Virus record (IMG/VR): IMGVR_UViG_3300038558_000079
Location: 26,555-90,554 of that record
Direction: 5' to 3' (one strand)
Length of the DNA stretch: 64,000 nucleotides
Origin: a virus
The notes beneath the pieces were generated by a model that searched no databases, was not told the origin of the DNA, and saw nothing but the letters and a program-made list of their open reading frames with translations. The translations under genes were made by a program, and so were the position numbers. Positions 20,878 through 62,076 of the stretch are shown one piece after another. Position 1 is the stretch's first letter; each line of letters starts with the position of its first letter.

Positions 20878-23800
20878 TTAAATACCGTGTGTAGCTCGAT
20901 ATGATGGCGAATTTAACATTCTGTCAGATATGTACTTAGCACCTTGTTCAGCACCCTGTTGAGCCGCTTTCCGAGCCAAGTCTTCACCCTGAGATTTAGT
21001 CAGGTACTCAACTCCATTAATGACTTGTGTCTCCAGTTTGACATTTATATCTTTAGGACGTGAAGCATTCTCTATAACCTTATCTGCACTTCCCCCATAC
21101 TCGGTAGTTTTGGGGACATAGCCTACCATGCCACCATCATTGAAGTTTAGGATGTCAACACCACCCAGCTTGTCAAGATTCTGAGTTTGGGCTAAATTGA
21201 GTACACGCTCACCATGGGTTAGAGCCGCGATCGCTACCCCACGCCCCCCATTAAGTGATTTCTCGCGATCGATAGCATCAATTATCCCACCCTGAGCATA
21301 GTTACCTACTATGCCACCATTCCAGAAAAAACTACCTAGTAAAGAGCTAGCAATACCTACAATTCCCCCTAAACCACCACCGCCAACCATCCCACTAACA
21401 CTAGCAAGAATACGTCCTATTCCGCCCCCACCACTGTTCTTACCATCACCTGAGAATAAACTACCAATCCCACTTACGATACTTCCAAATCCACCTTTAC
21501 CACTGAAAAAACTACCTAGTGCATTAGTGATAGGACTAAGAGCATCGGGTGCGCTTTTGATGATTCCTACGGGGACTGGATTCGCGCTATCAACTTTACC
21601 AGTGAATCCTGAGAATGTAGACGCTAGGAAGCTTGTAGTGGAATCTTCTTTGCCACCAAACATACTACCTAGAGTGCCATTATTCAATCCCCCGAAAGTA
21701 TTACCATTTACTACATTTACATACACAGGTAACACCGGGGTAGTACCCAGTTCACTACCGCCGTCTAATAGCGATAAAGGGTTAGTATCCCCACTATCGC
21801 CTTGTTCAAACATCCCACCTTGCCCTTCATTCTTGTTACCACCCAGTAAACCACCAAACAATTTCTCCACTAGGTAGTTACTAGCTATCTCAGCGACTGA
21901 ACCTAGTATGGAGTCCATTAATCCGTTGAATAACTCCTCTATGCTTTGACCACCCTTAATGATGCCAGCAAAGAATCCCTTCAATCCTGTTTGTACAGTA
22001 TCTATAACTGGCTTGAAGGCGTTAAAGTTATCCTTAACAGTGTCAAGTTTAACCTGGTTAATCTGCTCTAAGTTCTGTCTTAACTTGTCAGCTTCTATAG
22101 CACCAACTTGTGTTGTTCTGATGAATTCTTCGAGTTCTATCTTTTGCCCTCTATAAGCACTTTGTTGTTGTAATATTGCACTGTCACGTTGTAATGTGCG
22201 TGCTTTATTGGTCATACCACGGTTAGAGTAGAAGCTAGCTTGAGTCTCTAAGAGTTCTACCTGTGAGCCTGATACACGTTGCGATATCGTCTCTGTTCTT
22301 TGAGCTAGCGCTTTATCAAATTCCCCCTTAAGGTTATCAAGTGTTAAGTTGTTAAGTTCTCGAATTCTTAACTCTAATTCTGCTATTTCTTCTTGAGACT
22401 TACCAGTTGAATTGGCGAATTCCTTCATGTCGAGTATCTGTTTCTCAACACTAATCTCAAGTTCTTTCTTGTCAACCTCAAATTTTAACTTTATCGGGTC
22501 ACCTTGTTGTAGTCCCAAATTTATCGCTTGTGTAGTAGTATCAACGATTTGCTTCTGATATTGTAACTCCTGTTCTTTAATGCTTAGAATAACCTTTGAT
22601 TGTGATATCTGACTAGCAAAAGCAGTCTGTTGTGCTTGTGCATTTATGTTCTGAATTTTAACGTCATATTCACTCTGTTTCTCAGCATTAAGTTTTGTAA
22701 TTTCTTCAGGCGTTCTTTTCCCTTCAAAACCCGCTTGTTCAATTGCAGCTAACTCTTGTGCTAATTGCAGTTCAGCTTCGCGCAATGCAACTCGCTTCTC
22801 TAATTCCCCGATAGCATTATTGGCTAATTCGGGTGATAGTGGGTTAGTCTGTGCAAGTGTCTTTAATTGTTCAATCCGGACTTTATCATTAGCAATCTCA
22901 GCTTGTACCAATTCCTGTCTGGCTTCCCTATCCCGTGCTTCACTCTCACGTAGGAAAGCTAACTTAGCATTTTCAGTTTTCTGTTTAAGGGTAACGTCTA
23001 ATATCTTCTTACGCTCTCCAATTTCAGCACGTAATCTGTCAGCCTCTTCTTTGGTATACTCCTTAGCTTTTTCCTTGTCTTGGATTCCCTTAAGTTGTTT
23101 CTCAAGATTTAACTGTTCTTCTCTAGCACTTATAAGCGCTTCTAAGTCTGGTATGCCCTTCACATCGGGTGAAAATGGCGCTGTACTCTTTAGTTGTTGC
23201 AATTGGTCTAATTTAGCCTTCAAGGTGTCGATACTCGCATTCTCGATATCAAAGCTAGCCTGTTGCTTGCGTGCCTTTTCTTCAGCAGCGAAGCGGTCAT
23301 CTAGTAGCTTTTTAGATTCCTCACGCCCCTTGCGTACATTTTCTAACCCTATGGTTAATTTCTTGAGTTGGTCTTCACCCTCTGTAACCGCACGATTGAG
23401 AATATTCTTACCGTCATCTCCCAAAACACCCGTGGTTAGTGCGGTTCGTAATTGCTCTCTAAGGTTCTCTTTAATAGTCGGGTCATCTATGAGCTTCTGT
23501 ACCTTCTCACGCATCTCAGGAGATACAACACCTCCTTTACTGAGAAGTACCCTAGCAGTACCTATCTGTGATTCTATCGCTCTCTTTTGTTCAACAATAC
23601 TATTTTCTAGTTCTGTGTACTTAGTCTCTAATTGTCGTTGTTCTTGTTGTCGTTTCTGTTCATTATCTAAGGCTCCTTTGTATTCCAAGTTAGTATCAGT
23701 GACTTGATTACTCAAGCTGCTAACCTTAATCCCGTTTTGACGTAACTCTCTCTCTAAATCTAGAAAGGCTTTATTGCTAGCTCGTAATGCATTGGCGGTA

Positions 23801-26800
23801 TTTTGAGCGGCTTCATTACTAGCTTTCTGACGTGCTAATTCTACTTGACGATCGCGTTGTTGTTCGGCACGTCCGGTGACATCTGATATAGCAGTATTGC
23901 CTCTAGTCGCTATACTACCTGGTGTCCAGACGGTTGGGACTGGTGTGTTTGCTACTTGAGGTATTTGTACATTTGCGGTATTATTAGGAGTGTTTTTCTG
24001 TTGTGTAGGTAATCCCCCCTTCAGATAACTCACTAATTGATCTGCTAAACCCGGATTCCGCTTCCACCCATCATCTACACCTTGCCAATTTGAACCACCA
24101 AGTTTATTTGCTTGCATCCATCGAATAAGATCAGCGCCATCTTTAATGCGACCCGACTGAACAGCCTCGATAACTTTACTACCGTAATCGCCAATCCCTT
24201 TCTGTGAATTAGGTAAACGACGTTCACCAGCTAATATTTGCCCAAAGAAGTTCTGGTATTTCTCAGGAGTATTGATTATTTCTTTGTGATAGGCATTATT
24301 AAATTGTCCAAACCCTTGCATATTGTTGCCTGTACCACCTTTATAGGTGTAGAAAGCACGGCGGTTTGTACCCTTCTCAAATGCTTCAGATCCACCTATA
24401 CCTAATGCAAGCACTAACCTCCCACGACCTTCAGCAGTAGACGGGTCAAAATATTTATTCTGACTTAATTGACCACCCAATTCGTTCAGAGCCTCGTACC
24501 CTTTGCCTAATTTTGGAGCGCCACCTTGATTGACAACCCTCTGGGGTATATTGGGTGAGACAGAAGTATTTCTCCCCTGTAGCTGAGAAACAACATCATT
24601 ACTTGCAGATGTAATTTGTGAACGGTTTCGTGTACTGTCGCCTTGGTTTTTATAAGCAGTAATAATTACTTGCCTACCGTTAATATTGGCAAGTCCTACA
24701 TTTCCCGTAACCCGGCTATTATTACCTATTTTTCCCCCTGATTCACCACTAAAGCCAAAATTCCTAGTTTGTCCTAAAGCCGCCCTTGCAGTATCCGCAG
24801 CACCACCTTGATTAATTTGCAAATTTCTCATTGCTTTTGTTACATCGGCTGGTGTAGACGTGTTGCCAAAAGCATTAGTAGCACCAGGGATACTCAAATA
24901 ATTCCGAATTTGAGTCCCTGTAAAACCTCGTTTTTGTGCTTGTGCTGTAGCCGCTTCTGTACCACCCAGTATGCCAACTAAAGCGTTAAAACTTGTGTTA
25001 TCAGAATCACGAAGCATACGAGTCATTAAATCTCGTATAGAAACCTTCTGACCGGCTTGTATTGAGGAGCCTTCAGCTACCTGGTTTTTCGCAATAGTCA
25101 CACTTTGGTCTAATGATACTTTTCCCTCTTTAATTGCAGCATGTATCAAATCGGCGGCAATTAACTTTATAGTTGACGCTGGTGAACTTGGGGCTTGATT
25201 TGCATTATATGTACCTAATATCTCTCCACTTTTTACATCTTGTACCAAGAGAGAGTTTAGCCCATATTGACTTGCTATTTGTGAAGCATTAATGCCTTGG
25301 CGTTGAGATTGATTCTGTTTTACTTGTGTTGCACTTCCACCGTGATTATGCCCATCACCAGGATGATGTTGTTCAATTTGCCCTTTTTGTGCTGAACTTA
25401 AACCTCTACCATTTCTACCTGCTAAGAACTCAGTAGGGTTAACATTCTTCCCATTAATCCATGTTTCGTAGTGTAAATGCGCCCCCGTACCAATCCCCGT
25501 TGAGCCAACTTTACCAATCTTGTCACCAGCATTTAATTTTTGTCCTTCCACCACATCATAAGCCGACAAGTGGAAAAACTTATGCTCAATTTTACGACCA
25601 TGCTCATCGATTGACTCGACTACAACATATTTACCAGCGCCACCAGCCTGATACTTGACACCAGTAACTACCCCTGCCATGGGTGATACCACTTGTGTCC
25701 CTTCACCATACCCGTAATCTTGCCCACGGTGCATTCGTGTTTGTCCAGTTACTGGATGCCGTCTCATCCCCCAAGGGCTAGTTTTTCTACTTTCGGCTTG
25801 TGCTGCGGTAACACCTGCTATCGGAAAGACTGGTTGGCTTGCGTTCCCTACGGGTGGTTTTTCACCTATACCTAAAGCATTCTGAACAAAACCAATACCT
25901 TGCTGTACAACATTACCAGCAGTCTGCATTGCACCTTGTCTAAAGCTAACGACGCTCTGGGTTACACTTTCAAGTTGTTGACCCCAGCTATTAAATATTT
26001 GTCCAATGATATTTAGAATGGGGATATTGTTAGCAAAAGTGCTAAACCAATCCACTGTATTCTTAATAATTTCCTGAATGCTAAGAGGTAGTGAATCCAG
26101 GGCTACCTTAAGCTCGTTCTCAATCACTCCACCAACATTACTGATCTCAGTGCCCCAATTAATAGTAGCTGCTGTCACATTGCCAGTTGCCTCTAAAGAT
26201 GCGAATAGACTATCATTTGTAGCAATAACGGCATCATTATTACTATTGATACTATCGGTGTTAGTCTCGATCGCAAAACCTAAATCAGAAGCTGTAAAAG
26301 TGGTATTAAGTAGTTCTGAGCCTAATCCCTGAGTTGCATATATCCCATCTTCTGTAGTAGCTACTGTCTGCTGGATAGTATCGCCAAAGTCCAGACTACC
26401 TAACGTTACATCTTGAAATGCAGACGTTAGGTCATTTGTAGCACTCTCACTATCCTTTATAGTGTCTTTAGCCTCTAGTAAGCCATTATTGAAAGCCTTA
26501 GTGATATCAATAAATTTATTATCTATCCCTATCTTACTCAAGTCTAACTCTATCGGGATTGCTGGGATATCAATACTACCTTTAGCTGAAATACCAGGTA
26601 ATTGTCGGCGTAATTCCTCACCCTGTCTTAGGGAATCTTCAAAAGCATTATTAGCCTGTAATGCAGCACTTCCTACATCAAACTGTTTATCGGCGGCTTC
26701 TGAGAGTTGTTGGATACTTTCTATTACCGAATCTGCAAATTGAGATACTATATTATCCTGAAACCCAGAAATAGAAGTTTTGATATCGGTAGCATAAGAC

Positions 26801-29800
26801 TGTATTTTTAACTGGCTAGTTTGACGTTGTGCCTCAAGACTAGATTCTGCAAACTGTCTAGATGCACTACGGTAATATTCTTCTATTTGTTTGTTTAATT
26901 CGACTAACTTTTGATTAAATTCATACTTACCTTGTTCTACTCCAGCTTGTAGGTTAGAAATTTCTACAGAACGCTCTTGAAGTGCTGCATACTGGTCAAT
27001 AACATACTTGTCATTAACTCTCTCACCTGCTTTTTCTGATATAGTCTTAAGTTCAGCGCGTCCGGTATTCTCAGTAATACCATAGGCTTGTAGTGTATTC
27101 TGAGCATCCTTATTCTGCAACAGCGCTTTAGTCTGTGCTTGTGCATCAAGTAAACGCTTAATTTTTGCCTCTTGCTGTTGAATATCAAGTTCGCTTAAAC
27201 CAAATTGCAACTCCCCCTGAGTCTTGGAATTAGTGTATAAGCTGGACTTTAAAGTATTTCCTGCAACAGTAGCCTTATCTTCAGCATCAGCTAATTTATC
27301 AACTACACCTTGTATGTTTTTCTGCATTAATGAGAAAGCATTAACAGATTCGCCAACAGCGCGATTAAATTTATCTTGTGCTTTCTGTGCTGACGTTAGA
27401 TCGCTTTCTAGTCCTGCTAGTACATTCTTATATTGCGCCTGATTCCTACCAGGTTCATTGGCTAATTTTTGATATTTCTCAATCTCCTTTTTGAGCATAT
27501 CAACATTAGTCTGCATATTGGACTGTAATATTCCAATAGGTTTAGATATTTTTTCTCTCGCCTCTAGTATTTTTGTTTGTTCATCATCAATAACTTTAAG
27601 TCCAGCCTTATCTTGAGGATTTATAGCTACTAATGCCGCGCGTCGTGTCTGTATCTGTCTGAGTTGGTCATCATACTGCTTTAATTGTCCCAACTCTCTA
27701 ACACCTTGCCCCTTGGTTCCTAAGAGGCTTAATGCTTCTGAAGTTGTAGCATTAACACCTAAGCTTAAGTCAGATGTGGCATTAATGTTATCTCCCAACT
27801 TCTTGTCTTCATAGGTTGAACCCACTCTACCACCTGACAGTTTTTTAAGTAAGTTTGCAGGCGACTCGATTAAACCTGTAACTGCTTTCCCGGTTCCAAA
27901 TCTTAACTTATCAAACCAGTTAGCATCAGCTTTAATTTCCTTGGGTAATAACGCACCTATCCCCATTGCATCTAGCAAGGATTCATCGCGTACTAGCTTA
28001 GTAGCTTTAAATTTTTCGGTTTCCCCTCTACTTTCTGCTAGCGCTTCCCTGTACTTTTGCAAACTCTCAGTAGCGGTATCGGCAAAGTTCCTAGAATCTC
28101 CAGAGGCATCCTTGAAAGCAGCACTAATGCCTTCAAATACTTTCATCCCTACTTCGATTACTACGAACATAGTTAGCATAGGTGCGAGCGCTGACAGCAA
28201 TGCCCTAGCACCCGATGCTAATCCTATAAATCCCGCAACACCATTGATTAGCGCCGCTTTACCAAATGCCCTAACTCCAATAGCACCTCTAGTAAAATTA
28301 GCACCAATGTTAGAAATTCCATTTTTCTGTAGGCTTAGTAGTCCACCATTTAACGCTGACAATCCACCTTTCGCATTATCCAGCATAGCAACGCCGAAGT
28401 TCTTAGCACTTGACAGGACATTACTAGCACCCGATCTTAGAGATTGTACCGGGTTAGCTCTAATGTTCTGTAACGTGTCTCCTATCCCGTCTACTAGTTG
28501 TGTGGCCTTAAGTTTGTTATCACCATTTCCTAGTATTTTCTGGAATGTTCCCATAGCGGCACTTGCTGCACTCGCAACACCCGGAATTTTCATTAACGCA
28601 GCGGTTAACGCTCCAAAAGATTGGAATAGGTTAACTCCAGCCATTACAGCGAGCGCACGAAAAACACCTAGCAGAAAATCTGCGTTTTCAGTCACAAACT
28701 TGATAGCTCCGCTACCTAGTGCTAATAGCAAATTTTTGATTGGTAACAGTGTCTTGCCAATTGTTGCTTGCATCTGAAATAACGCATTATTGAAATTTAT
28801 TAATGCAGACACTGAACTATTAGCCGCTCCTTTGACACCCATCGCAGTTTCGGCGCTTAGTTGTTGAGCAAACTTAGGTAGAAAATCTTCTGACAGTAAC
28901 TTACCTTGACTCATCATCTTGTCTAGAGTTTGTGTTGTTACACCTATCGCTCTAGCTGCAATGTTGAACGCACCAGGTAAAACTTCTCCCAATTGTTGTC
29001 TTAATTCCTCAGCGCTTACCTTGCCTTTTCCAGCCATTTGTTGGACAGCAGCAAAAACTCTACTCTGTTGTTCTGAATTCAAGTCATAAACAGTGCTAGC
29101 TTGTGATACACCACTAAATATCTTCTGTGTCTGACTTTCCAGTGCGGTGTCCCGCGTTGCAGCCCCTAATGAAACATATCCTTCCATTGAGGACTTCATG
29201 TCGGTTCCCAAACGCGCCGTTTCCCCCCTAACAAATGCCAAGCTATTAGCAGCCTCTTGAGCATTGTTGCTGATAAATAGGAATCTACGCTCTAAAGATT
29301 CCATGGCTATAGCGGCTTCAATTGATGCGGGTGCAATGCTGGTTATTATATTCTGGAAAAATTGTACCCCTTTAAATGCCAGGAAACCACCTACTAAACC
29401 TTTAAGACCATCTATCAAAATGCCAGCAATACCGCTTCCTTTAAATAGCGCATCAAAGAATGTATTTACTTGTGGTACTGCAACATTGAGAGACTTGAAG
29501 ATATCTTGAGTTGCAATATTTAACTCTTGTAACTCTTGGGTTTCTTCAGGGGTTATCGTAGTCTTGCGAGTTAATTCTAAGGCTCTATTATTGTTAGCTA
29601 CTAATTTATCTTTATAGACTAATAATCTATCCGATTCTTCTTTGTCCCCTCTTAATTCCGCTTCATTAGCCGATACTACCAGGTTAGCAATTAAGGACGG
29701 CGTGTGCATCTTTAATATCTCTGTCTGTTTCCTAACCCTAGCTGCTATGCCACCAAACAAATCTGCTAGTGCTACCCCAACAGAATTAGTAAATTTGTTT

Positions 29801-32800
29801 CCTGCGTTTTGTGTAACCTGCTGTACTTTCTCAGGACTAATAAGAGGAGAAGTATTAACTACATTACCTTTTAATTCTTGTTTGTCTAAAAGTTTTGCAT
29901 TTTCCAAATAAACTTTTAGGCTTTCTAATTCGTGTTGTGACAGTTCTAACTCATCACCAGACTGTATGCTTGCTTCGGCTTTTGCCAGAAGTTGCTGGTA
30001 CTCTACCTGTCTTTCCTCAAGGTATTTTTGAGCCGCTTCAAATTGTTGCTTCTCATGCTCATCGAAGCTAGCCATAGCTTTATCTATATCGCTAGTTGTT
30101 CGATTTGCTGAGGCATTATAAACATGAGACATAGCAGCAGCAGCATTGGCATTGGCTTTATTACTCTGGCTTATACTGCGTCTGTTCTCTAGGTTGCCTA
30201 CAATACCTTCTACTTTCTGTTTGCCAGTTTCTACCATTTTTTCTGTAAAACTTGGCACAGTATTTACAGCGTTAATACCTTTATTAAACCCTTCTACTAC
30301 AAAGCGCCCTAAACGTTCAAATACCTTAGATGGACTTTGTATCTCCAGTTCTTTTTTAGCCGACTTTGTAACACCTTGCGCTAACTCAATAGATGCAAGT
30401 TCAGCACTTGGTATCGACTTTTCAATACCTTGACTTAACCCTGTTCCTAAGTTCTCTAACCCATAACTTTGAGCAAATTTAGCATCCCAATCATCGATGT
30501 CTCCAGTTTGCACATCAGGAGTAATATCTTCTAAGTCAATATTTGCCGCTTCCTGTGCAAGTAAGCTATCCCAGTCATAATCATCTATTTGTTTTGCATA
30601 ATCATCAACAACTACCTTTGTCCCTTGTTCTATTGATTCCGCTATCTTATCAGGGACAAAGCTTAAATCCTTGGATAACTTGGGGTTTATAGGAGTTTCT
30701 TTAATTACCTGTTGATGGATCTCAGGTACTTTAATTTCAGGAATTTGCTCAACTATCGGGGATTCAATCTCAGGTATTTTAATCTCAGGCAATTCAAGCG
30801 AATCAGTCCCAATATCACCGAGGACAAAACCCTCTATATTTTTAATAATACCACTTAGCTGTAAGCTTGCACCTTTAAGATATTTCTTAACACTATCTTC
30901 TAAGTCTCGACTCAATAATTCCTGAATTGTTTGGTAGTCATCTTGGATTTCCTCAAAGCTAATCTGAGGAATTTCCTCTTGTTTGATAGCATTCAACGCA
31001 CCCCGCGCCGCTGTAATTCTACCCTGTAGATGCGGCTTAAGCGCATCAGGTGTGGTAACTAACTGATCGGTCTTAGAGATGATACTTTTTTGGTGTGGTG
31101 TAAGTTGTGGAATTGTTGACCTGAGTTTTTTGAGGTCAACGTTGTTAACTAATCTTGCCGCTATTTGTTCCTTAGTACCACTTGAACCAACACCATGGCT
31201 TTTGGCTATATTTTTTAGCTCATCCTTGCTGGTGTAACTACCTGTAAGTTGCTTCAGTAAATCCTCACGGCTGCCACCTAATAACTCGGTGTGTACCTTG
31301 TTAGCAAATTGGCTAGCACTGAATGTTGTCTTTTCAATTAGAACCTGTAAGTCTTTATATAATTTATCCAGTTCATCTTGTGGCAAAATATCTATATTTT
31401 TAAGTCTCTCTAGATAAGGCTCAAAAATCTTATATAGATTATCAAATTTTGCTTCTAATAATTTCCCAGTCCCAGATGTGTCATAGGTAGCGTTCTTATT
31501 GTTCTCTATTAGTTGTTTATATTGCTCTACTTGTATTTTGCCTAAATCGTTTAAGAGTTTACCTCCTCCGCTACCTGCTAGTTGCCCAATATTGCGGAGG
31601 CTTGTCTTTCTTTGGATATTAGATATTATTTTCTCTCTATTTCTGTTCGTAAAAACGTAAGCGTCTTGTTCTATTTCTCTAGAAAATGCTTCTCGTTCTG
31701 TATCCCCCTTAAAATTACTTGCCGATCCTTCCACCCTTCGCGCCAACTTTGGATCTAGTTCGTAATCTTCTACCGTCGGCTTGAGTAATTTACGCGCCGA
31801 TTTTAGCTCTTGGAATAAATCTATTTTACCAAAATCGCTTTGCATCCCATGTGTAAGTTCATGGATCAATGTCTCTAAATTTTCTGGTGTTGCATTCCCC
31901 TTAATGAGTTGTGCCAATACATCTTTCTGTACTTTTAAAACGTTATTCTCGCTAGAATAAAACCCCGTTGCCTTTATCCCCTTCTTTTTATAATCTTCAA
32001 TTTCTTCATCCGAAAAAGCCTTCAAGGTAGGAATTTGCTCAGGACTTATACTAATTCCAGCTATAGCCGCAACTTCATCTATAACATCCTGATACTGTTT
32101 AGGTTGTTTTTTGACTTTCTTGGTTGTACCACTAGTTTTTCCCCCCCGCTCTAGTGCTTTAATAGCATCATCAGCTTGCTTCTCATACACCGTAACCTGA
32201 GCATTCATGGCTTCCATTAACTTCAATGCAGAAGCCATTTCTTCTTTACTGCTAAAGTCCAAAGTCCTGAGTTTAGCAAATAATTTCTTATATTCCGTCC
32301 CTATATTTTTAACATTTCCAGTAGAAATAGTTTTCTGAATTTCCGCTATATTATTCCTACCTCCAGAATTCTTAACTACAGTTGCTTCTGCTAAGGGCAC
32401 TGATGCTTCTGCTCTCTGTATGAAAGCTAACTCTTGTTTGTTTAACCTTTCAAGATCGGCCTTCACATTAGTGATTAAATTTTCTAATTCTTTCCTGTTA
32501 AGAACTTCTTTTTCGATAAGAGCTTTTGCTGCTAAGATGGTATCATCATCAGAATCAGATAGTGCATTCTTAAGTGCCTCTTGATATTTCAATACTTTCT
32601 TATTAGAGGCTTCCAAGACTTTCTCTGCTTTAGTAAGTTTGGTGTTCAAGTCTTCACGTTGCTTACCAACAGCTTCTTTCTTCTCACTTATAGCGAGGGT
32701 GCGTAATATTCTAGCACCTTCTAATCCTTTAGCACCTTTTACACCGACTAGATCTAAAAGATGTTCTAATTTTTGTTTCTCTCCACCTAACTTTTCTACC

Positions 32801-34431
32801 CTCTCCCTGACAGCCTCTATCTGCTTTTCTACTTCGCCTAACTGTTTCGTTTTAGCTTCTAAGTTAGCACCAAGCATTCCCTCTTTTTCCGCATCAGTGC
32901 TACCTCTGAATTGCGTTAATTTTGCCTGATTTTCAGATAGTACATATTTGCTCGCATCTTCACGCTTACCTAAAGACTTTAAATCTTCAATCGCAAAAAG
33001 CTTCTGATTACGTTCTGTTTCATTTAACCCCTCAGTGACTTCCTTTTCCTCGAAAGCGGCTATCTTTTTGGCAGTCAACGCTTTCTGTTTCTGTATCTCA
33101 ATTAAGCCTGCTTTCTGAGTTTGAATGGCATTTTTAAAATATTCTTCGCCACGCTCAGTTACACTTTTCCCCATATAGTCAGCTAAATTCCGCTCTAACT
33201 GACTTCTGTAAACTTCTAATCCCGCTAACTCATCCTCACTTTGTTTTCTCTGGACTTCATTTAACCCTTCTCTACTAAGTGATTCCTCATACTCTATTCC
33301 TAATTCTTTAGCGGCGGCTTCATTACGTCCGGTTTTAGTAACTCTCTTGCGTCCGCTTAATAATCTTTTTTCAATCTCAATTTGGTCTTTGCCGATAATA
33401 GATTGGACACGATCTATTGATTCATCTATTGTCTTTGCCAGACTTGATTCGCTATACCCTTTCTGTATAGCCCGTACTACGGGTGCTTTTGTTATTGCCT
33501 CTCTTATCCCTGGAACAATTCGCTCGAAAATTGAACGTCCTACTAAATCCAACGAGCCAATCTTAGAAGATAGTGCAGACTCTATAGAATCTGTTAATCC
33601 TTCAGAAAACTTAGAAGTAATCATTCTTCCAAAGTTTTCTGACGCTCCTACAAATATGTTGTCAAAAATACCTCTATTCTTGGTTCTTATTTTCGATGCG
33701 GTTGATTGAACTCCTGAACTGTCACTCTTAGTTGCTGAAGTGGTTGTAGTTGTTCCTGGAGTGCTAGTGTAACTTGGTAATGTAGCTGTTCCCGAAGTGT
33801 TACCCGGACTTGGTAGTGTGGCTGTTCCCTGTGGTATGTGCTGCGATAACCCTGGTGTTACTGGCGATCGCGATACAGTAGGCGTTAAGAAGCTTGTAGA
33901 ACCTACTCGGTTGCTACTTTTTTGCTGTGAATTAGTTATATTCTTAACAACATTACTAATTTTATCAGATGCGGTATCAAAACTTTTCTCAATACCGTCT
34001 TTTAAGGTTACACTTATCTTCTCCCCTTCGCTTTGCTTTATTTCTGCCTTTACCTTTACCTTTGTCTCTAATTGTTCTGACAATCCTACAATCTGTTTTT
34101 TAAAGCTAGCCTCATTAATTGGATCCGTTGTAGTTCTGATTCTTAATGGATTCTTCTCAAGCCACGCATTAACATCTTTAACATGTGTACGTTTGGATTC
34201 TATATGCTTATTGAGTTGAGTTAATGGGACATCATCAACTTTAACTTTAACTATTAAGTCTTGGCTTAGTGCTTTTTGAAGACGTTGCCGTTCCTGTGCA
34301 ATATTGGCATTATCAAAACTAACCCCAAGCTTGACAACTGGAGTTTTCACACCTGACAACGACCCCAGTCCCTGATAGAAACCACTGAGATCTAACTTTG
34401 TGCCAATATCAACTGAGGCAATCCTAACCAT
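20878..34431 (-). CDS. Giant tape measure protein with enzymatic domains
   Basis: A 4,517-residue tail tape measure protein. It sets tail length and is carried into the host envelope. In order: Ser/Thr-rich linker (178-250), long coiled coils, a gluzincin-like HELTH (H857-H861), a SAP-like motif (about 1064-1096), a tape-measure N-terminal family domain (about 1700-1860, LPGAFNIAARAIGV), hydrophobic segments, an M23 endopeptidase (H2901, D2905, HLH at 2985-2987), a class A beta-lactamase-fold domain (S3086-K3089, SDN 3143-3145, K3234-x-G), a lysozyme-like domain (about 3312-3470), more coiled coil, and a C-terminal GERVLNLAQTQNL segment. At 1.5 angstrom per residue the helical part suggests a tail several hundred nm long. 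Confidence 0.92.
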   Translation of the reverse strand: MVRIASVDIGTKLDLSGFYQGLGSLSGVKTPVVKLGVSFDNANIAQERQRLQKALSQDLIVKVKVDDVPLTQLNKHIESKRTHVKDVNAWLEKNPLRIRTTTDPINEASFKKQIVGLSEQLETKVKVKAEIKQSEGEKISVTLKDGIEKSFDTASDKISNVVKNITNSQQKSSNRVGSTSFLTPTVSRSPVTPGLSQHIPQGTATLPSPGNTSGTATLPSYTSTPGTTTTTSATKSDSSGVQSTASKIRTKNRGIFDNIFVGASENFGRMITSKFSEGLTDSIESALSSKIGSLDLVGRSIFERIVPGIREAITKAPVVRAIQKGYSESSLAKTIDESIDRVQSIIGKDQIEIEKRLLSGRKRVTKTGRNEAAAKELGIEYEESLSREGLNEVQRKQSEDELAGLEVYRSQLERNLADYMGKSVTERGEEYFKNAIQTQKAGLIEIQKQKALTAKKIAAFEEKEVTEGLNETERNQKLFAIEDLKSLGKREDASKYVLSENQAKLTQFRGSTDAEKEGMLGANLEAKTKQLGEVEKQIEAVRERVEKLGGEKQKLEHLLDLVGVKGAKGLEGARILRTLAISEKKEAVGKQREDLNTKLTKAEKVLEASNKKVLKYQEALKNALSDSDDDTILAAKALIEKEVLNRKELENLITNVKADLERLNKQELAFIQRAEASVPLAEATVVKNSGGRNNIAEIQKTISTGNVKNIGTEYKKLFAKLRTLDFSSKEEMASALKLMEAMNAQVTVYEKQADDAIKALERGGKTSGTTKKVKKQPKQYQDVIDEVAAIAGISISPEQIPTLKAFSDEEIEDYKKKGIKATGFYSSENNVLKVQKDVLAQLIKGNATPENLETLIHELTHGMQSDFGKIDLFQELKSARKLLKPTVEDYELDPKLARRVEGSASNFKGDTEREAFSREIEQDAYVFTNRNREKIISNIQRKTSLRNIGQLAGSGGGKLLNDLGKIQVEQYKQLIENNKNATYDTSGTGKLLEAKFDNLYKIFEPYLERLKNIDILPQDELDKLYKDLQVLIEKTTFSASQFANKVHTELLGGSREDLLKQLTGSYTSKDELKNIAKSHGVGSSGTKEQIAARLVNNVDLKKLRSTIPQLTPHQKSIISKTDQLVTTPDALKPHLQGRITAARGALNAIKQEEIPQISFEEIQDDYQTIQELLSRDLEDSVKKYLKGASLQLSGIIKNIEGFVLGDIGTDSLELPEIKIPEIESPIVEQIPEIKVPEIHQQVIKETPINPKLSKDLSFVPDKIAESIEQGTKVVVDDYAKQIDDYDWDSLLAQEAANIDLEDITPDVQTGDIDDWDAKFAQSYGLENLGTGLSQGIEKSIPSAELASIELAQGVTKSAKKELEIQSPSKVFERLGRFVVEGFNKGINAVNTVPSFTEKMVETGKQKVEGIVGNLENRRSISQSNKANANAAAAMSHVYNASANRTTSDIDKAMASFDEHEKQQFEAAQKYLEERQVEYQQLLAKAEASIQSGDELELSQHELESLKVYLENAKLLDKQELKGNVVNTSPLISPEKVQQVTQNAGNKFTNSVGVALADLFGGIAARVRKQTEILKMHTPSLIANLVVSANEAELRGDKEESDRLLVYKDKLVANNNRALELTRKTTITPEETQELQELNIATQDIFKSLNVAVPQVNTFFDALFKGSGIAGILIDGLKGLVGGFLAFKGVQFFQNIITSIAPASIEAAIAMESLERRFLFISNNAQEAANSLAFVRGETARLGTDMKSSMEGYVSLGAATRDTALESQTQKIFSGVSQASTVYDLNSEQQSRVFAAVQQMAGKGKVSAEELRQQLGEVLPGAFNIAARAIGVTTQTLDKMMSQGKLLSEDFLPKFAQQLSAETAMGVKGAANSSVSALINFNNALFQMQATIGKTLLPIKNLLLALGSGAIKFVTENADFLLGVFRALAVMAGVNLFQSFGALTAALMKIPGVASAASAAMGTFQKILGNGDNKLKATQLVDGIGDTLQNIRANPVQSLRSGASNVLSSAKNFGVAMLDNAKGGLSALNGGLLSLQKNGISNIGANFTRGAIGVRAFGKAALINGVAGFIGLASGARALLSALAPMLTMFVVIEVGMKVFEGISAAFKDASGDSRNFADTATESLQKYREALAESRGETEKFKATKLVRDESLLDAMGIGALLPKEIKADANWFDKLRFGTGKAVTGLIESPANLLKKLSGGRVGSTYEDKKLGDNINATSDLSLGVNATTSEALSLLGTKGQGVRELGQLKQYDDQLRQIQTRRAALVAINPQDKAGLKVIDDEQTKILEAREKISKPIGILQSNMQTNVDMLKKEIEKYQKLANEPGRNQAQYKNVLAGLESDLTSAQKAQDKFNRAVGESVNAFSLMQKNIQGVVDKLADAEDKATVAGNTLKSSLYTNSKTQGELQFGLSELDIQQQEAKIKRLLDAQAQTKALLQNKDAQNTLQAYGITENTGRAELKTISEKAGERVNDKYVIDQYAALQERSVEISNLQAGVEQGKYEFNQKLVELNKQIEEYYRSASRQFAESSLEAQRQTSQLKIQSYATDIKTSISGFQDNIVSQFADSVIESIQQLSEAADKQFDVGSAALQANNAFEDSLRQGEELRRQLPGISAKGSIDIPAIPIELDLSKIGIDNKFIDITKAFNNGLLEAKDTIKDSESATNDLTSAFQDVTLGSLDFGDTIQQTVATTEDGIYATQGLGSELLNTTFTASDLGFAIETNTDSINSNNDAVIATNDSLFASLEATGNVTAATINWGTEISNVGGVIENELKVALDSLPLSIQEIIKNTVDWFSTFANNIPILNIIGQIFNSWGQQLESVTQSVVSFRQGAMQTAGNVVQQGIGFVQNALGIGEKPPVGNASQPVFPIAGVTAAQAESRKTSPWGMRRHPVTGQTRMHRGQDYGYGEGTQVVSPMAGVVTGVKYQAGGAGKYVVVESIDEHGRKIEHKFFHLSAYDVVEGQKLNAGDKIGKVGSTGIGTGAHLHYETWINGKNVNPTEFLAGRNGRGLSSAQKGQIEQHHPGDGHNHGGSATQVKQNQSQRQGINASQIASQYGLNSLLVQDVKSGEILGTYNANQAPSSPASTIKLIAADLIHAAIKEGKVSLDQSVTIAKNQVAEGSSIQAGQKVSIRDLMTRMLRDSDNTSFNALVGILGGTEAATAQAQKRGFTGTQIRNYLSIPGATNAFGNTSTPADVTKAMRNLQINQGGAADTARAALGQTRNFGFSGESGGKIGNNSRVTGNVGLANINGRQVIITAYKNQGDSTRNRSQITSASNDVVSQLQGRNTSVSPNIPQRVVNQGGAPKLGKGYEALNELGGQLSQNKYFDPSTAEGRGRLVLALGIGGSEAFEKGTNRRAFYTYKGGTGNNMQGFGQFNNAYHKEIINTPEKYQNFFGQILAGERRLPNSQKGIGDYGSKVIEAVQSGRIKDGADLIRWMQANKLGGSNWQGVDDGWKRNPGLADQLVSYLKGGLPTQQKNTPNNTANVQIPQVANTPVPTVWTPGSIATRGNTAISDVTGRAEQQRDRQVELARQKASNEAAQNTANALRASNKAFLDLERELRQNGIKVSSLSNQVTDTNLEYKGALDNEQKRQQEQRQLETKYTELENSIVEQKRAIESQIGTARVLLSKGGVVSPEMREKVQKLIDDPTIKENLREQLRTALTTGVLGDDGKNILNRAVTEGEDQLKKLTIGLENVRKGREESKKLLDDRFAAEEKARKQQASFDIENASIDTLKAKLDQLQQLKSTAPFSPDVKGIPDLEALISAREEQLNLEKQLKGIQDKEKAKEYTKEEADRLRAEIGERKKILDVTLKQKTENAKLAFLRESEARDREARQELVQAEIANDKVRIEQLKTLAQTNPLSPELANNAIGELEKRVALREAELQLAQELAAIEQAGFEGKRTPEEITKLNAEKQSEYDVKIQNINAQAQQTAFASQISQSKVILSIKEQELQYQKQIVDTTTQAINLGLQQGDPIKLKFEVDKKELEISVEKQILDMKEFANSTGKSQEEIAELELRIRELNNLTLDNLKGEFDKALAQRTETISQRVSGSQVELLETQASFYSNRGMTNKARTLQRDSAILQQQSAYRGQKIELEEFIRTTQVGAIEADKLRQNLEQINQVKLDTVKDNFNAFKPVIDTVQTGLKGFFAGIIKGGQSIEELFNGLMDSILGSVAEIASNYLVEKLFGGLLGGNKNEGQGGMFEQGDSGDTNPLSLLDGGSELGTTPVLPVYVNVVNGNTFGGLNNGTLGSMFGGKEDSTTSFLASTFSGFTGKVDSANPVPVGIIKSAPDALSPITNALGSFFSGKGGFGSIVSGIGSLFSGDGKNSGGGGIGRILASVSGMVGGGGLGGIVGIASSLLGSFFWNGGIVGNYAQGGIIDAIDREKSLNGGRGVAIAALTHGERVLNLAQTQNLDKLGGVDILNFNDGGMVGYVPKTTEYGGSADKVIENASRPKDINVKLETQVINGVEYLTKSQGEDLARKAAQQGAEQGAKYISDRMLNSPSYRATHGI

Positions 34432-55001: not shown

Positions 55002-56240
55002 CCTACACCAACCTGAGTACAGGTATGGTGTAGGCTTTCAGCAGCCCTGTACCAAATCGAATAAACTAGGTTGGAAGTACTCGACTTTCCGACATAATTC
55101 ACACGATAGGTACGAACCTCTAGGCTGGCTTACGGTCAGCCCCAAAAGTTTGATTACGTTGGCTCCATTAAAATCGGCATCGCCCTTCCAGTGGCAGTGT
55201 CCACAAGAGAAAGTCTTGCCACTACGGTAGGACTTTCCTTTTATTGGATGGATGTGCAAACACTTGTGGCAAGTCTGGCTTGTGTAGGCTGGATTGACTT
55301 TGATAATTTCAACTCCAGCACCAAGAGCTTTGTAGTCCAAGAACATTCGTAACTGAAAAAACGCCCAACTGTTAGATCGTCTGCGTTCAGTTTTGTTTCT
55401 TGGTTGCTCGTTTGTACGCTCTCGAATTCCTGTTAGGTCTTCGAGGGCAATTGAGTATTCAAACTGTTTTGCTCTACTAACAATGTGCTTACTGACGTTA
55501 TGGTTGACCCATGACTGGAAGCGCCTCTCCCGACCAGATAACCGTTGCAAAATCTGCCTAGCCCTACGTCTAGTTGACCTTGTGCCTTCTGTAGCCTTCT
55601 TTTGGAGAGATGCTCTTACCTTTGAATATTTGTCTCGAATTTCTGTTATTTGTTGTCCCGAAAAACTTTCGGACTCACTGGTTACAGCTACGTCTCTACG
55701 CCCAAAGTCCACCCCAATTACACCTTGGGATTTTTGAGGACTTGGAGCTTCATTCTTTACCTGAATATTGACCGAGTAAGTACCATTTTGATACTTAACC
55801 AGTGTTGCCGATGTTGGCGTAAAACCAGATAATTTTCCTTTCTGGTAACTACCAACATCAACTAGGAAACGCTCTCTCCCACCAACTAACGTTAGCGACA
55901 CTGACCAATCTTTCTCTCTAAAGGAGAAAATTCGTGCATCGTAATCAACAGAGGTTGGGAGAAACTTTTTAACGGGTTTGCTCATTCGCTTCGCTGTTTT
56001 GCGATTGGCACTCACCCGATTGATAGCACGGATAGCAAGGTTGGAAGCTAGCCCAAAACGTTCCCTCACTTCACCATAAACCTGATTTTGGATGGTTACG
56101 TTGTGGGTAATCTTGGGTTCTACAGCTTCGTTGATATGGTTGCAAGCACCCGCAAACGCTTGAAGGGTCGCATCTATCTTGGCAACCTGTTCGGGAGTCG
56201 GATTAATTTTGCAGACTATCGTCAACACTTGCTTTTCCAT
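55002..56240 (-). mobile_element. IS200/IS605-type element with tnpB only
   Basis: The element holds tnpB and, just beyond its stop, a hairpin at 55002-55034 with outer arms CCTACACC/GGTGTAGG and an inner ACCTG-AGTA-CAGGT. This structure is nearly the same as the right end of the complete element at 62045-62077, so it is the right end. No tnpA is present, and the left end was not located. Confidence 0.75.
55038..56240 (-). CDS. tnpB: TnpB, RNA-guided nuclease of IS200/IS605 family
   Basis: A 400-residue TnpB. RuvC-like catalytic residues are Asp178 (GVDFGRRD), Glu267 (ALEDLTG) and Asp356 (GDADFNGAN). The zinc ribbon has C324, C327, C346 and C349. All three acidic residues are present, so it may be active. 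In this family the guide RNA is read through the element's right end, here the hairpin immediately downstream. There is no tnpA next to it. TnpB lineage differs from the copy at 60847. Confidence 0.92.
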   Translation of the reverse strand: MEKQVLTIVCKINPTPEQVAKIDATLQAFAGACNHINEAVEPKITHNVTIQNQVYGEVRERFGLASNLAIRAINRVSANRKTAKRMSKPVKKFLPTSVDYDARIFSFREKDWSVSLTLVGGRERFLVDVGSYQKGKLSGFTPTSATLVKYQNGTYSVNIQVKNEAPSPQKSQGVIGVDFGRRDVAVTSESESFSGQQITEIRDKYSKVRASLQKKATEGTRSTRRRARQILQRLSGRERRFQSWVNHNVSKHIVSRAKQFEYSIALEDLTGIRERTNEQPRNKTERRRSNSWAFFQLRMFLDYKALGAGVEIIKVNPAYTSQTCHKCLHIHPIKGKSYRSGKTFSCGHCHWKGDADFNGANVIKLLGLTVSQPRGSYLSCELCRKVEYFQPSLFDLVQGC

Positions 56241-58800: not shown

Positions 58801-58821
58801 GAGAAAAAGTAGAGAGTGAAA

Positions 58822-60276
58822 ATGCCAAAGTACACGCCGCATTACAAACCTAATCAGTTAATTTGTGGAACCGGAACAATAGCGGTAATCTCAGGATGGA
58901 CTGTGAAGGATACGATTGCTAAAAAGTTAGAATCTCATGAGTATGCTGTCATCGGACAATTGTATAGTCCTACTAGAGGGATTAGCTTTTTGATTAGAAA
59001 CCTATTGGCTAACCCTCATGTGACTAACCTAGTAATTCTTGGCTGTACAAAAGAGGATAAAAGTTCTGGTAGCTGTCAATGCCTGATTGATTTCTTGCGT
59101 AATGGTTTTCGAGCAGGTATCAGTGATACAGGACGTGAGACTTGGATAATTAACTCTAAGATTACTGGCTATATCGATATTGAAATTACTGCTGATGCTC
59201 TTGAAAGATTCCGACAATCTGTAGTGTGGAGTGAGGCGAAGTCAGTTAGCGAAGTGGTAGATAAAATTAGGGAAGGCGTGAGAGTAATTGAACCTTATGG
59301 TGAACCCATGATATTCCCTATTACAGAAACATTACCCCGCGTATTGCCGGGAACACGCTATGGTCATCGGATTGAGGGGAAAACTATTGCTGATACTTGG
59401 GTTAAAATAATTCATCGGATTAAGACTACGGGTACAATTAGACCAACTGGATATGACGGTCAATGGCAAGAGTTAATCGATTTGATGGCAGTTGTTACCG
59501 ATGAGCCTGCGGGATTCTATTTTCCAGAACCGAATTATCTTCCCTGCGATCGCGCATTCATCACCGAATATATCCCACATATACTCTGTGATGCTCCAAT
59601 TAGAGAAGGTATTAAGTACACCTATGGTCAACGTTTACGCTCTTGGTTTGGTGTAGACCAGATTGAACAAGTGATTCAGAAGCTAATTGGTGAGATTGAC
59701 GCTGCTAGCGCTGTGATGTCGCTATGGGATACTCAAGATCATATCAAGGGCGGTAGTCCGTGCCTCAATCACATTTGGTTGAGGGTAGTTGATAATGAAC
59801 TCTCTCTTACGGCTGTATTCCGGAGTAATGATATGTTCTCAGCTTGGGTTAGTAATGCCATGGGTTTAAGAGCATTACAGGGGCACATCAGAGATGAAAT
59901 CGCTAACCGTAGCGAGTACAATCTCACTTTAGGGGCATTGATCGTAATCTCACAGTCTGCGCATATATACGATGATTGCTGGGACAATGCAGACATGCTG
60001 ATTAAGAATCATTATGGTAAAGGTAAACGGGATTACTATGACGCTAGCGGTAATTTTATTATTGAGGTATGTGATAATGAGATAATTGTTGCCCAGACTT
60101 CACCGGGTAGCGGGGAAGTGGTGAGGACATATAACGGAAAAATCCCCCTGACGATAATCAGAGAGATTGCTGCTAATTCACCTGCGATCGCACCTGAGCA
60201 TATAGGATACTTAGGAATTGAGTTGGAGCGTGCTAGGGTACTGGGGTCTGGGTATCGACAAGATGGATTACCTTGA
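58822..60276 (+). CDS. Thymidylate synthase-like enzyme with N-terminal DUF4346-like domain
   Basis: A 484-residue protein (ATG 58822). Residues about 15-160 resemble the DUF4346/MtrA-like module (YSPTRGISFLIRNLLANP, LVILGCTKEDKSSG). From about 185 it follows the thymidylate synthase fold: YTYGQRLRSWFGVDQ, GGSPCLNHIWLRV with catalytic Cys314, SLTAVFRSNDMFSAWVSNAMG and LGALIVISQSAHIYDDCW, like the methanogen-type ThyA. It converts dUMP, or possibly a modified pyrimidine, using a folate-like methyl donor. It would feed dTTP to the phage together with the class II RNR. Confidence 0.8.
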   Translation: MPKYTPHYKPNQLICGTGTIAVISGWTVKDTIAKKLESHEYAVIGQLYSPTRGISFLIRNLLANPHVTNLVILGCTKEDKSSGSCQCLIDFLRNGFRAGISDTGRETWIINSKITGYIDIEITADALERFRQSVVWSEAKSVSEVVDKIREGVRVIEPYGEPMIFPITETLPRVLPGTRYGHRIEGKTIADTWVKIIHRIKTTGTIRPTGYDGQWQELIDLMAVVTDEPAGFYFPEPNYLPCDRAFITEYIPHILCDAPIREGIKYTYGQRLRSWFGVDQIEQVIQKLIGEIDAASAVMSLWDTQDHIKGGSPCLNHIWLRVVDNELSLTAVFRSNDMFSAWVSNAMGLRALQGHIRDEIANRSEYNLTLGALIVISQSAHIYDDCWDNADMLIKNHYGKGKRDYYDASGNFIIEVCDNEIIVAQTSPGSGEVVRTYNGKIPLTIIREIAANSPAIAPEHIGYLGIELERARVLGSGYRQDGLP

Positions 60277-60378: not shown

Positions 60379-60789
60379 TTAATCGGGCGTGTCCTGATTC
60401 TCTATATACTTCTTTAATGCTGAAACTGTTACTCCACCACATGATGCAATGAAGTAAGAGCCATTCCATAAAACATCTTTGTGGTAGAACTCATCAACCC
60501 TACTTTCAAACTCAGACCGTAGCTTTCGACTGGTTACGGTTTTGATGTTATTAACCAACTTACTGAGTTCAATCCCTGGATGGTACTGAAATAGCAAGTG
60601 AACATGATTTTCCTCACCGTTGAACTCAATCACCTTGCATTCCCATTTTTCTAGTAAACTCTCGAATATTTCATGCAAGCGGTCTAGCATCTCTTTGGTG
60701 AATAACTTACGGCGGTATTTTGTGGTCAACACCAAATGAGCCTTTAAGTCTGACACAGAACGACCTCTGGAAACAAAATCATTTTTCAT
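60379..60789 (-). CDS. tnpA: TnpA, Y1 HUH transposase of IS200/IS605
   Basis: A 136-residue Y1 transposase. The HUH motif is NHVHLLF (His62, His64), and the catalytic Tyr128 is in LKKYIENQ. Length is normal for the family. It cuts and joins single-stranded ends at the flanking hairpins. It is divergent to tnpB with 57 nt between the starts. Confidence 0.93.
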   Translation of the reverse strand: MKNDFVSRGRSVSDLKAHLVLTTKYRRKLFTKEMLDRLHEIFESLLEKWECKVIEFNGEENHVHLLFQYHPGIELSKLVNNIKTVTSRKLRSEFESRVDEFYHKDVLWNGSYFIASCGGVTVSALKKYIENQDTPD

Positions 60790-60846: not shown

Positions 60847-62076
60847 GTGAGAACAGCCTACCAGTACCGACTACGCCCAACAAAACAGCAAGCTGCCAAC
60901 TTTGACAGATGGCTTGTAATGCTGTGTAGTCAGTACAATTACCTATTAGCTGACAGGTTTAATTGGTATGAGCAAAACCGTTCTCCTGTTAATGCTTGTC
61001 CTCTAGTTTGTCACCTCCCAGAACTGAGAGACAAACCAGATTATTATTCGCAAAAGAAAACCTTACCTTTACTCAAGAAAACTCATCCTTGGTATGGAGA
61101 AATTTACTCACAAGTCCTTCAAGATGTAGTTAAGCGAGTTAAAGTGACGTTCGACAGGTTCCTCAAAGGGGACAGTAACGGTAAGCGTAGCGGCAAGCCG
61201 AGATTTAAAGCTCGTAATCGCTATCGCACGTTTACTTATCCTCAGATGAAAGATGGGTGCTTACAGGGTAATCTGATTAACTTACCAATGCTCGGAAAAG
61301 TTAAGGTTGTTCTGCATCGACCTATTCCGGATGGATTTAAAATCAAAACCGCATCTGTCACCAAGAAAGCTGACGGGTTTTACCTCACACTATCTTTAGA
61401 AGACAAAACGGTTCCTGAGATTAAGCCAGATTTCAATCCGGATAAAATTACTGGAATTGATGTTGGATTGAAGGAATTTCTAACAACCTCTGAAGGCGAA
61501 ACGGTTTCTATTCCGACTCTTTACCGCAAATCACAAAAACGTTTACGTGTTATCCAAAAACGAGTATCACGCCGAAAAAAGGGAAGTAACGGTAGACTTA
61601 AAGCTATCAAGCAACTAGGGAAACAGCACAAAAAGGTTGCAGACAAGCGCAAGGATTTTCATTTCAAAACAGCTAATTGGCTGTTATCAAAATATGACGT
61701 AATTGCTCATGAAGACTTAAACATCAAAGGACTTGCGCGTACCCGATTGGCTAAATCTGTGTTGGATGCTGGGTGGTCAAGCTTTCTGTCGATACTAACA
61801 AACAAAGCCGAAAAAGCTGGTTTGTTGGTTGTCTCAGTCAGCGCCCATAACACTTCACAAGATTGCTCCAATTGTGGCGAGAAAGTACCAAAGAAACTGC
61901 ATATTCGGTGGCATGACTGTCCTTATTGTGGGTGTAGTCTAGACCGAGATCATAATGCGGCGATAAATATAAAGAATAGAGCGGTAGGGCAGTCCGTTCT
62001 TAAAGCCAAACGCCTCCTAAGCAATAGCCGGATTGGTTTGGAAGCCTACACCGTACCTGTACCCAGGTCGGTGTAG
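60847..62076 (+). CDS. tnpB: TnpB, RNA-guided nuclease of IS200/IS605 family
   Basis: A 409-residue TnpB starting at GTG 60847. Catalytic residues Asp205 (GIDVGLKEF), Glu289 (AHEDLNIKG) and Asp368 (LDRDHNAA) are present, and the zinc ribbon is CSNCG and CPYCG. The stop lies inside the right-end hairpin, the region that yields the guide RNA in related elements. It differs clearly from the TnpB at 55038. Confidence 0.93.

Follow-up and report, generated by a model that had tools for sequence, protein, structure and literature searches.

The open reading frame described here raises the question of why a phage should encode a thymidylate synthase (TS) joined to two further domains, and whether the product of such an enzyme is dTMP or a modified pyrimidine. 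The DNA analysed, a stretch of 64,000 nucleotides that we call the window, belongs to a 90,554-bp IMG/VR record with phage structural and replication genes, among them those for a major head protein, head protease, terminase, tape-measure protein, DNA polymerase, primase and helicase. With a probability of roughly 0.8, we read the frame as a copy, borne by a phage of cyanobacteria, of a cyanobacterial TS that would provide phage DNA synthesis with dTMP made from dUMP. The frame is real, conserved and host-derived; it is kept open, and its sequence is preserved, in 91 relatives, well above chance. An alternative in-frame GTG start lies at 58816, 6 bases 5' of the ATG used in Table 1.

Table 1. 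Positions in the window of the TS gene, its parts and the second dNTP-supply gene of the phage
Feature	Position	Strand	Remarks
Three-domain thymidylate synthase gene	58822..60276	+	484 aa from ATG 58822; 91 full-length relatives
MtrA-like N-terminal domain, aa 34-151	58921..59274	+	PF04208/NF002126 matches; cobalamin-ligand His replaced (residue 80)
Methanogen-type TS core, aa 184-396	59371..60009	+	TIGR03283, PF00303, fold match
Codon of catalytic Cys314 (= E. coli ThyA Cys146)	59761..59763	+	Invariant in 92 rows
PterinBD-DUF4346 domain, aa 407-480	60040..60261	+	PF14251; 43/43 family members match
B12-dependent-type ribonucleotide reductase, 1149 aa	11804..15253	-	Intein with LAGLIDADG homing endonuclease; phage's other dNTP-supply gene

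As judged from profile matches, the protein is ordered as an MtrA-like domain, then TS, then DUF4346. The preliminary description of this DNA had recognised a TS with a catalytic Cys314, which is borne out by the match to PF00303 (Thymidylat_synt; aa 264-396, 46.3 bits against a Pfam cut-off of 24.3), by TIGR03283 and by Cys314 at the catalytic position. It had put the TS in the C-terminal part and DUF4346 at the N terminus; the TS domain is in fact central, and the PF14251 match (47.7 bits, cut-off 29.6) sits at the C terminus. Its likening of the N-terminal part to MtrA holds on weak scores, NF002126 (NCBIfam MtrA) matching aa 34-134 with an E value of 1e-9 and PF04208 (Pfam) aa 41-151 with an E value of 0.003, both under their cut-offs, and the MtrA model is matched by 39 to 40 of the 43 family members tested. 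The accompanying idea that DUF4346 is related to MtrA does not hold, the two being separate families here. An alignment to methanogen-type ThyA, as that description had proposed, is provided by TIGR03283 (NCBIfam), which covers aa 184-389 with an E value of 2e-38; at 131.9 bits the match falls short of the equivalog cut-off of 174.55, and the protein is thus related to methanogen TS without being a member of that group. The broader view that TS is joined here to domains of the methanopterin and folate one-carbon world stands.

Each part has its own nearest known counterpart. Methanogen-type TS (TIGR03283, the tetrahydromethanopterin-dependent ThyA) is the best family match, over the full model length and in all 43 members tested; the window protein differs in its two extra fused domains, in its score under the equivalog cut-off and in belonging to cyanobacteria, which use folate. 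With ThyA (PF00303/COG0207) it has in common the fold and the catalytic Cys, Arg, Asp, Asn, His and Tyr, whereas three other active-site residues are replaced, further domains are fused and the N-terminal half of the classical domain cannot be aligned to it. Residues 34-151 show weak, consistent homology to MtrA (PF04208) models and structures, but lack the cobalamin-ligand His and the membrane helix. The C-terminal domain is homologous to stand-alone DUF4346 proteins and to TIGR00284 (dihydropteroate synthase-like), except that the fusion has no pterin-binding TIM barrel. In the structure predicted for the full protein (mean pLDDT 80.8, pTM 0.62), the TS core was the sole part with fold matches among the matches listed.

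Residue conservation was assessed in an alignment of 92 sequences, in which E217, Y268, C314, R334, S335, D337, N345, H381 and Y383 are invariant. A profile alignment to E. coli ThyA, with the E. coli numbering counted by hand, equates C314 with C146, R334-S335 with R166-S167, D337 with D169, N345 with N177, H381 with H207 and Y383 with Y209. C314 is invariant in a Pro-Cys context and the PF00303 score lies above the curated cut-off, which places the protein in the TS superfamily. At the position that distinguishes the two pyrimidine substrates, all 92 rows have the dUMP-type Asn (N345) and not the dCMP-type Asp, and at each catalytic site checked the phage copy agrees with the family. Counting against our explanation, the E. 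coli positions H147, Q165 and W80 are replaced in this family by L, F or L, and L, respectively. The TS of a Methanobacteriales virus also has the PCL and FRSND motifs, so that the H147 and Q165 replacements mark the methanogen-type branch. We know of no reconstitution of the full reaction of a methanogen-type TS.

The same three-domain protein is encoded on 11 other virus contigs (49-67% identity). A genome scan returned 128 relatives, of which we kept 80, all cyanobacterial by title and 59-73% identical. A phage-specific fusion was therefore rejected, since the protein at these 80 loci is a cyanobacterial housekeeping protein; a search for plasmid homologues gave a weak TS match only. Among the 194 cyanobacterial genomes sampled, we found the fusion in 30 and ThyX in 161, with both in one and neither in four (Fisher p 4e-29, uncorrected for relatedness). 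The one genome with both, G132, also has a strong DHFR match. In all 30 fusion genomes PF00303 matches one protein, the fusion itself, with no second ThyA, and thymidine kinase (PF00265) was found in none of them, indicating that they have no classical salvage. Photoautotrophs that have neither ThyX nor a second ThyA nor thymidine kinase must draw their dTMP from the fusion protein, which thus appears to be the sole dTMP route in about one in seven (~15%) of the sampled cyanobacteria. Carriers include relatives of Nostoc, Microcystis, Microcoleus and Crocosphaera. A COG survey of 31 cyanobacteria recorded ThyA in 8 of them and ThyX in 23 (PMC5954106), and its ThyA entries are very probably this three-domain protein. 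The presence of ThyA in some cyanobacteria was accordingly known already, while the three-domain make-up seems undescribed; in the open-licence literature we found no paper on DUF4346, alone or with TS, and none that links MtrA, tetrahydromethanopterin and TS (in both cases weak evidence of absence).

The host gene neighbourhood is one of nucleotide metabolism. At 53 of the 80 host loci a dCMP deaminase gene follows the TS gene on the same strand, usually as the next gene, and adenylate kinase is nearby in 26; dCTP deaminase and dUTPase genes are found downstream in about 12 and about 7 of the 80, respectively. The dCTP deaminase gene of Aliterella atlantica, which adjoins the TS gene (L057, 6221-7966, minus strand), is interrupted by an intein. 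A phage contig (L003) likewise has dCMP deaminase directly downstream of TS, as in the hosts.

The MtrA-like domain invites a more unusual reading, namely that it carries a cobamide methyl group and that the protein is a corrinoid-linked methyl-transfer thymidylate synthase. Besides the MtrA homology itself, this would fit the B12-type ribonucleotide reductase of the phage and the corrinoid adenosyltransferase gene (CobA_CobO_BtuR) found 3' of TS, on the other strand, at 35 of the 80 host loci (for example L049), an enzyme equally compatible with a B12-type ribonucleotide reductase. MtrA binds cobalamin via His84, which is linked to Glu54 (PMC4915002). In our alignment, His84 falls at residue 80, where none of the 92 rows has His, Glu54 falls at P50 of the window protein and the meander motif GAIPF is not retained, so no corrinoid methyl group is to be expected on the domain. 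The loop round residue 80 is strongly conserved (T76, E78, D79, N81), and the alignment thus describes a domain that appears to have kept the pocket and lost the corrinoid ligand. We regard a corrinoid-linked enzyme as extremely improbable and have rejected the domain as a corrinoid carrier; the earlier suggestion of a one-carbon-handling domain next to the active site is likewise not supported. The domain probably binds another ligand, such as a pterin or folate tail or a nucleotide, or serves in assembly.

DUF4346, alone or fused, is present in 89 of the 194 cyanobacterial genomes, and it occurs as a separate protein of ~130 amino acids in many cyanobacteria, all 30 fusion genomes among them. 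Its predicted fold has three strands and two helices (pLDDT 86.7); the model has no PDB match better than an E value of 0.07 that might point to a function, and by neither sequence nor fold was a PDB relative found. The domain probably also holds or positions a pterin cofactor. Of 53 genomes compared, about 20 (for example L101 and L102) have a ~240-aa RibD_C gene of reductase fold 5' of the stand-alone DUF4346 gene on the same strand, with one gene between; the arrangement is alike in genomes with and without the fusion and is a lead only.

We infer the activity, the cofactor and the roles of both flanking domains along the following lines. Cys314 of the middle domain would attack dUMP, and the one-carbon unit of methylene-tetrahydrofolate would be moved to C5, giving dTMP; together, TS and the phage ribonucleotide reductase would supply dTTP during phage DNA replication. 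Classical TS produces dihydrofolate, and the cofactor economy of the hosts is a puzzle. PF00186 (DHFR) had no match in 21 of the 30 fusion genomes. Strong PF00186 matches are more frequent where the fusion is present (6 of 30 genomes, against 4 of 164 without it; p 0.001), a point in favour of ordinary TS chemistry. The absence of DHFR from bacteria such as Prochlorococcus was noted earlier (PMC1971073). RibD_C was considered as a substitute and proved uninformative: all genomes in a subset of 60 have such proteins, whether or not they carry the fusion. The family seems to combine altered reduction-site residues with an unexplained cofactor economy, in many cyanobacteria as the sole TS. A third chemical route to dTMP, with a ThyA fold, an altered reduction site and pterin and MtrA-like domains that bind or regenerate the cofactor independently of DHFR, is in our view unlikely; if true, it would explain the 21 fusion genomes without recognisable PF00186.

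Base modification, raised in the preliminary description, would have the phage enzyme make a modified pyrimidine such as 5-hydroxymethyl-dUMP for altered virion DNA in place of dTMP. Among the best fold matches to the complete model are indeed the dCMP hydroxylase AfhB of phage HY126 (target TM 0.80) and the CMP hydroxymethylase MilA, and the equivalents of W80 and Q165 are replaced; the fold likeness is expected of any TS-fold protein. With the uracil-type N345 invariant and the family residues kept at the catalytic sites checked in the phage copy, with hosts that depend on this enzyme for their dTMP, and with no modification pathway or companion base-modification genes recognised among the contig frames scanned in a partial survey, we hold a modifying enzyme to be very improbable. 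Beyond the likeness to dCMP hydroxylase and CMP hydroxymethylase, we found nothing in its favour, and synthesis of dTMP remains the preferred reading.

Two features make expression of TS by this particular phage less certain: the contig ends 3.7 kb beyond the gene, and an IS200/IS605-like element lies behind it. Read from the sequence, two TnpB-like frames and one IS200/IS605 TnpA-like frame flank TS (55038-56240, minus; 60379-60789, minus; 60847-62076, plus), and two pentapeptide-repeat proteins are encoded at the contig end (62046-62666 and 62890-63717, both minus). This setting, together with few phage matches among the flanking genes, could mean that the contig end was poorly trimmed and that the gene lies in host DNA. 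Against this, a gene 2 kb upstream belongs to the phage family phrog_6452, which is seen in 95 phage records, independent virus contigs carry TS near ribonucleotide reductase, DNA polymerase, portal or terminase genes, and the window copy, which is nearest to Limnofasciculus and relatives, sits on a long branch with 73% identity to its nearest host. A host fragment is therefore decidedly unlikely. Elsewhere in the window, the tape-measure protein (20878-34431, minus; 4517 aa) contains peptidase M23 and beta-lactamase-family (PF13354) domains.

The tree places the 12 viral copies at scattered points, several of them nested among hosts; parsimony gives six changes between viral and host labels, at least two of which are forced by supported branches. 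The other viral contigs with TS have few further genes in common with this phage. The simplest account is that diverse phages have repeatedly captured a host dTMP synthase for dNTP supply. Between the window copy and its nearest host, dN is 0.21 with dS saturated, which indicates purifying selection; the dN/dS ratio was dropped owing to the saturation.

The role of TS in the phage is thus probably ordinary, and the interest resides in the TS family itself. Thymidylate synthesis is essential, and about 15% of the sampled cyanobacterial species seem to rely for it on a three-domain TS that phages also carry. The family opens to experiment the standing question of how cyanobacteria that lack folA reduce dihydrofolate and by which enzyme, and the question whether DUF4346 is a pterin-binding partner.
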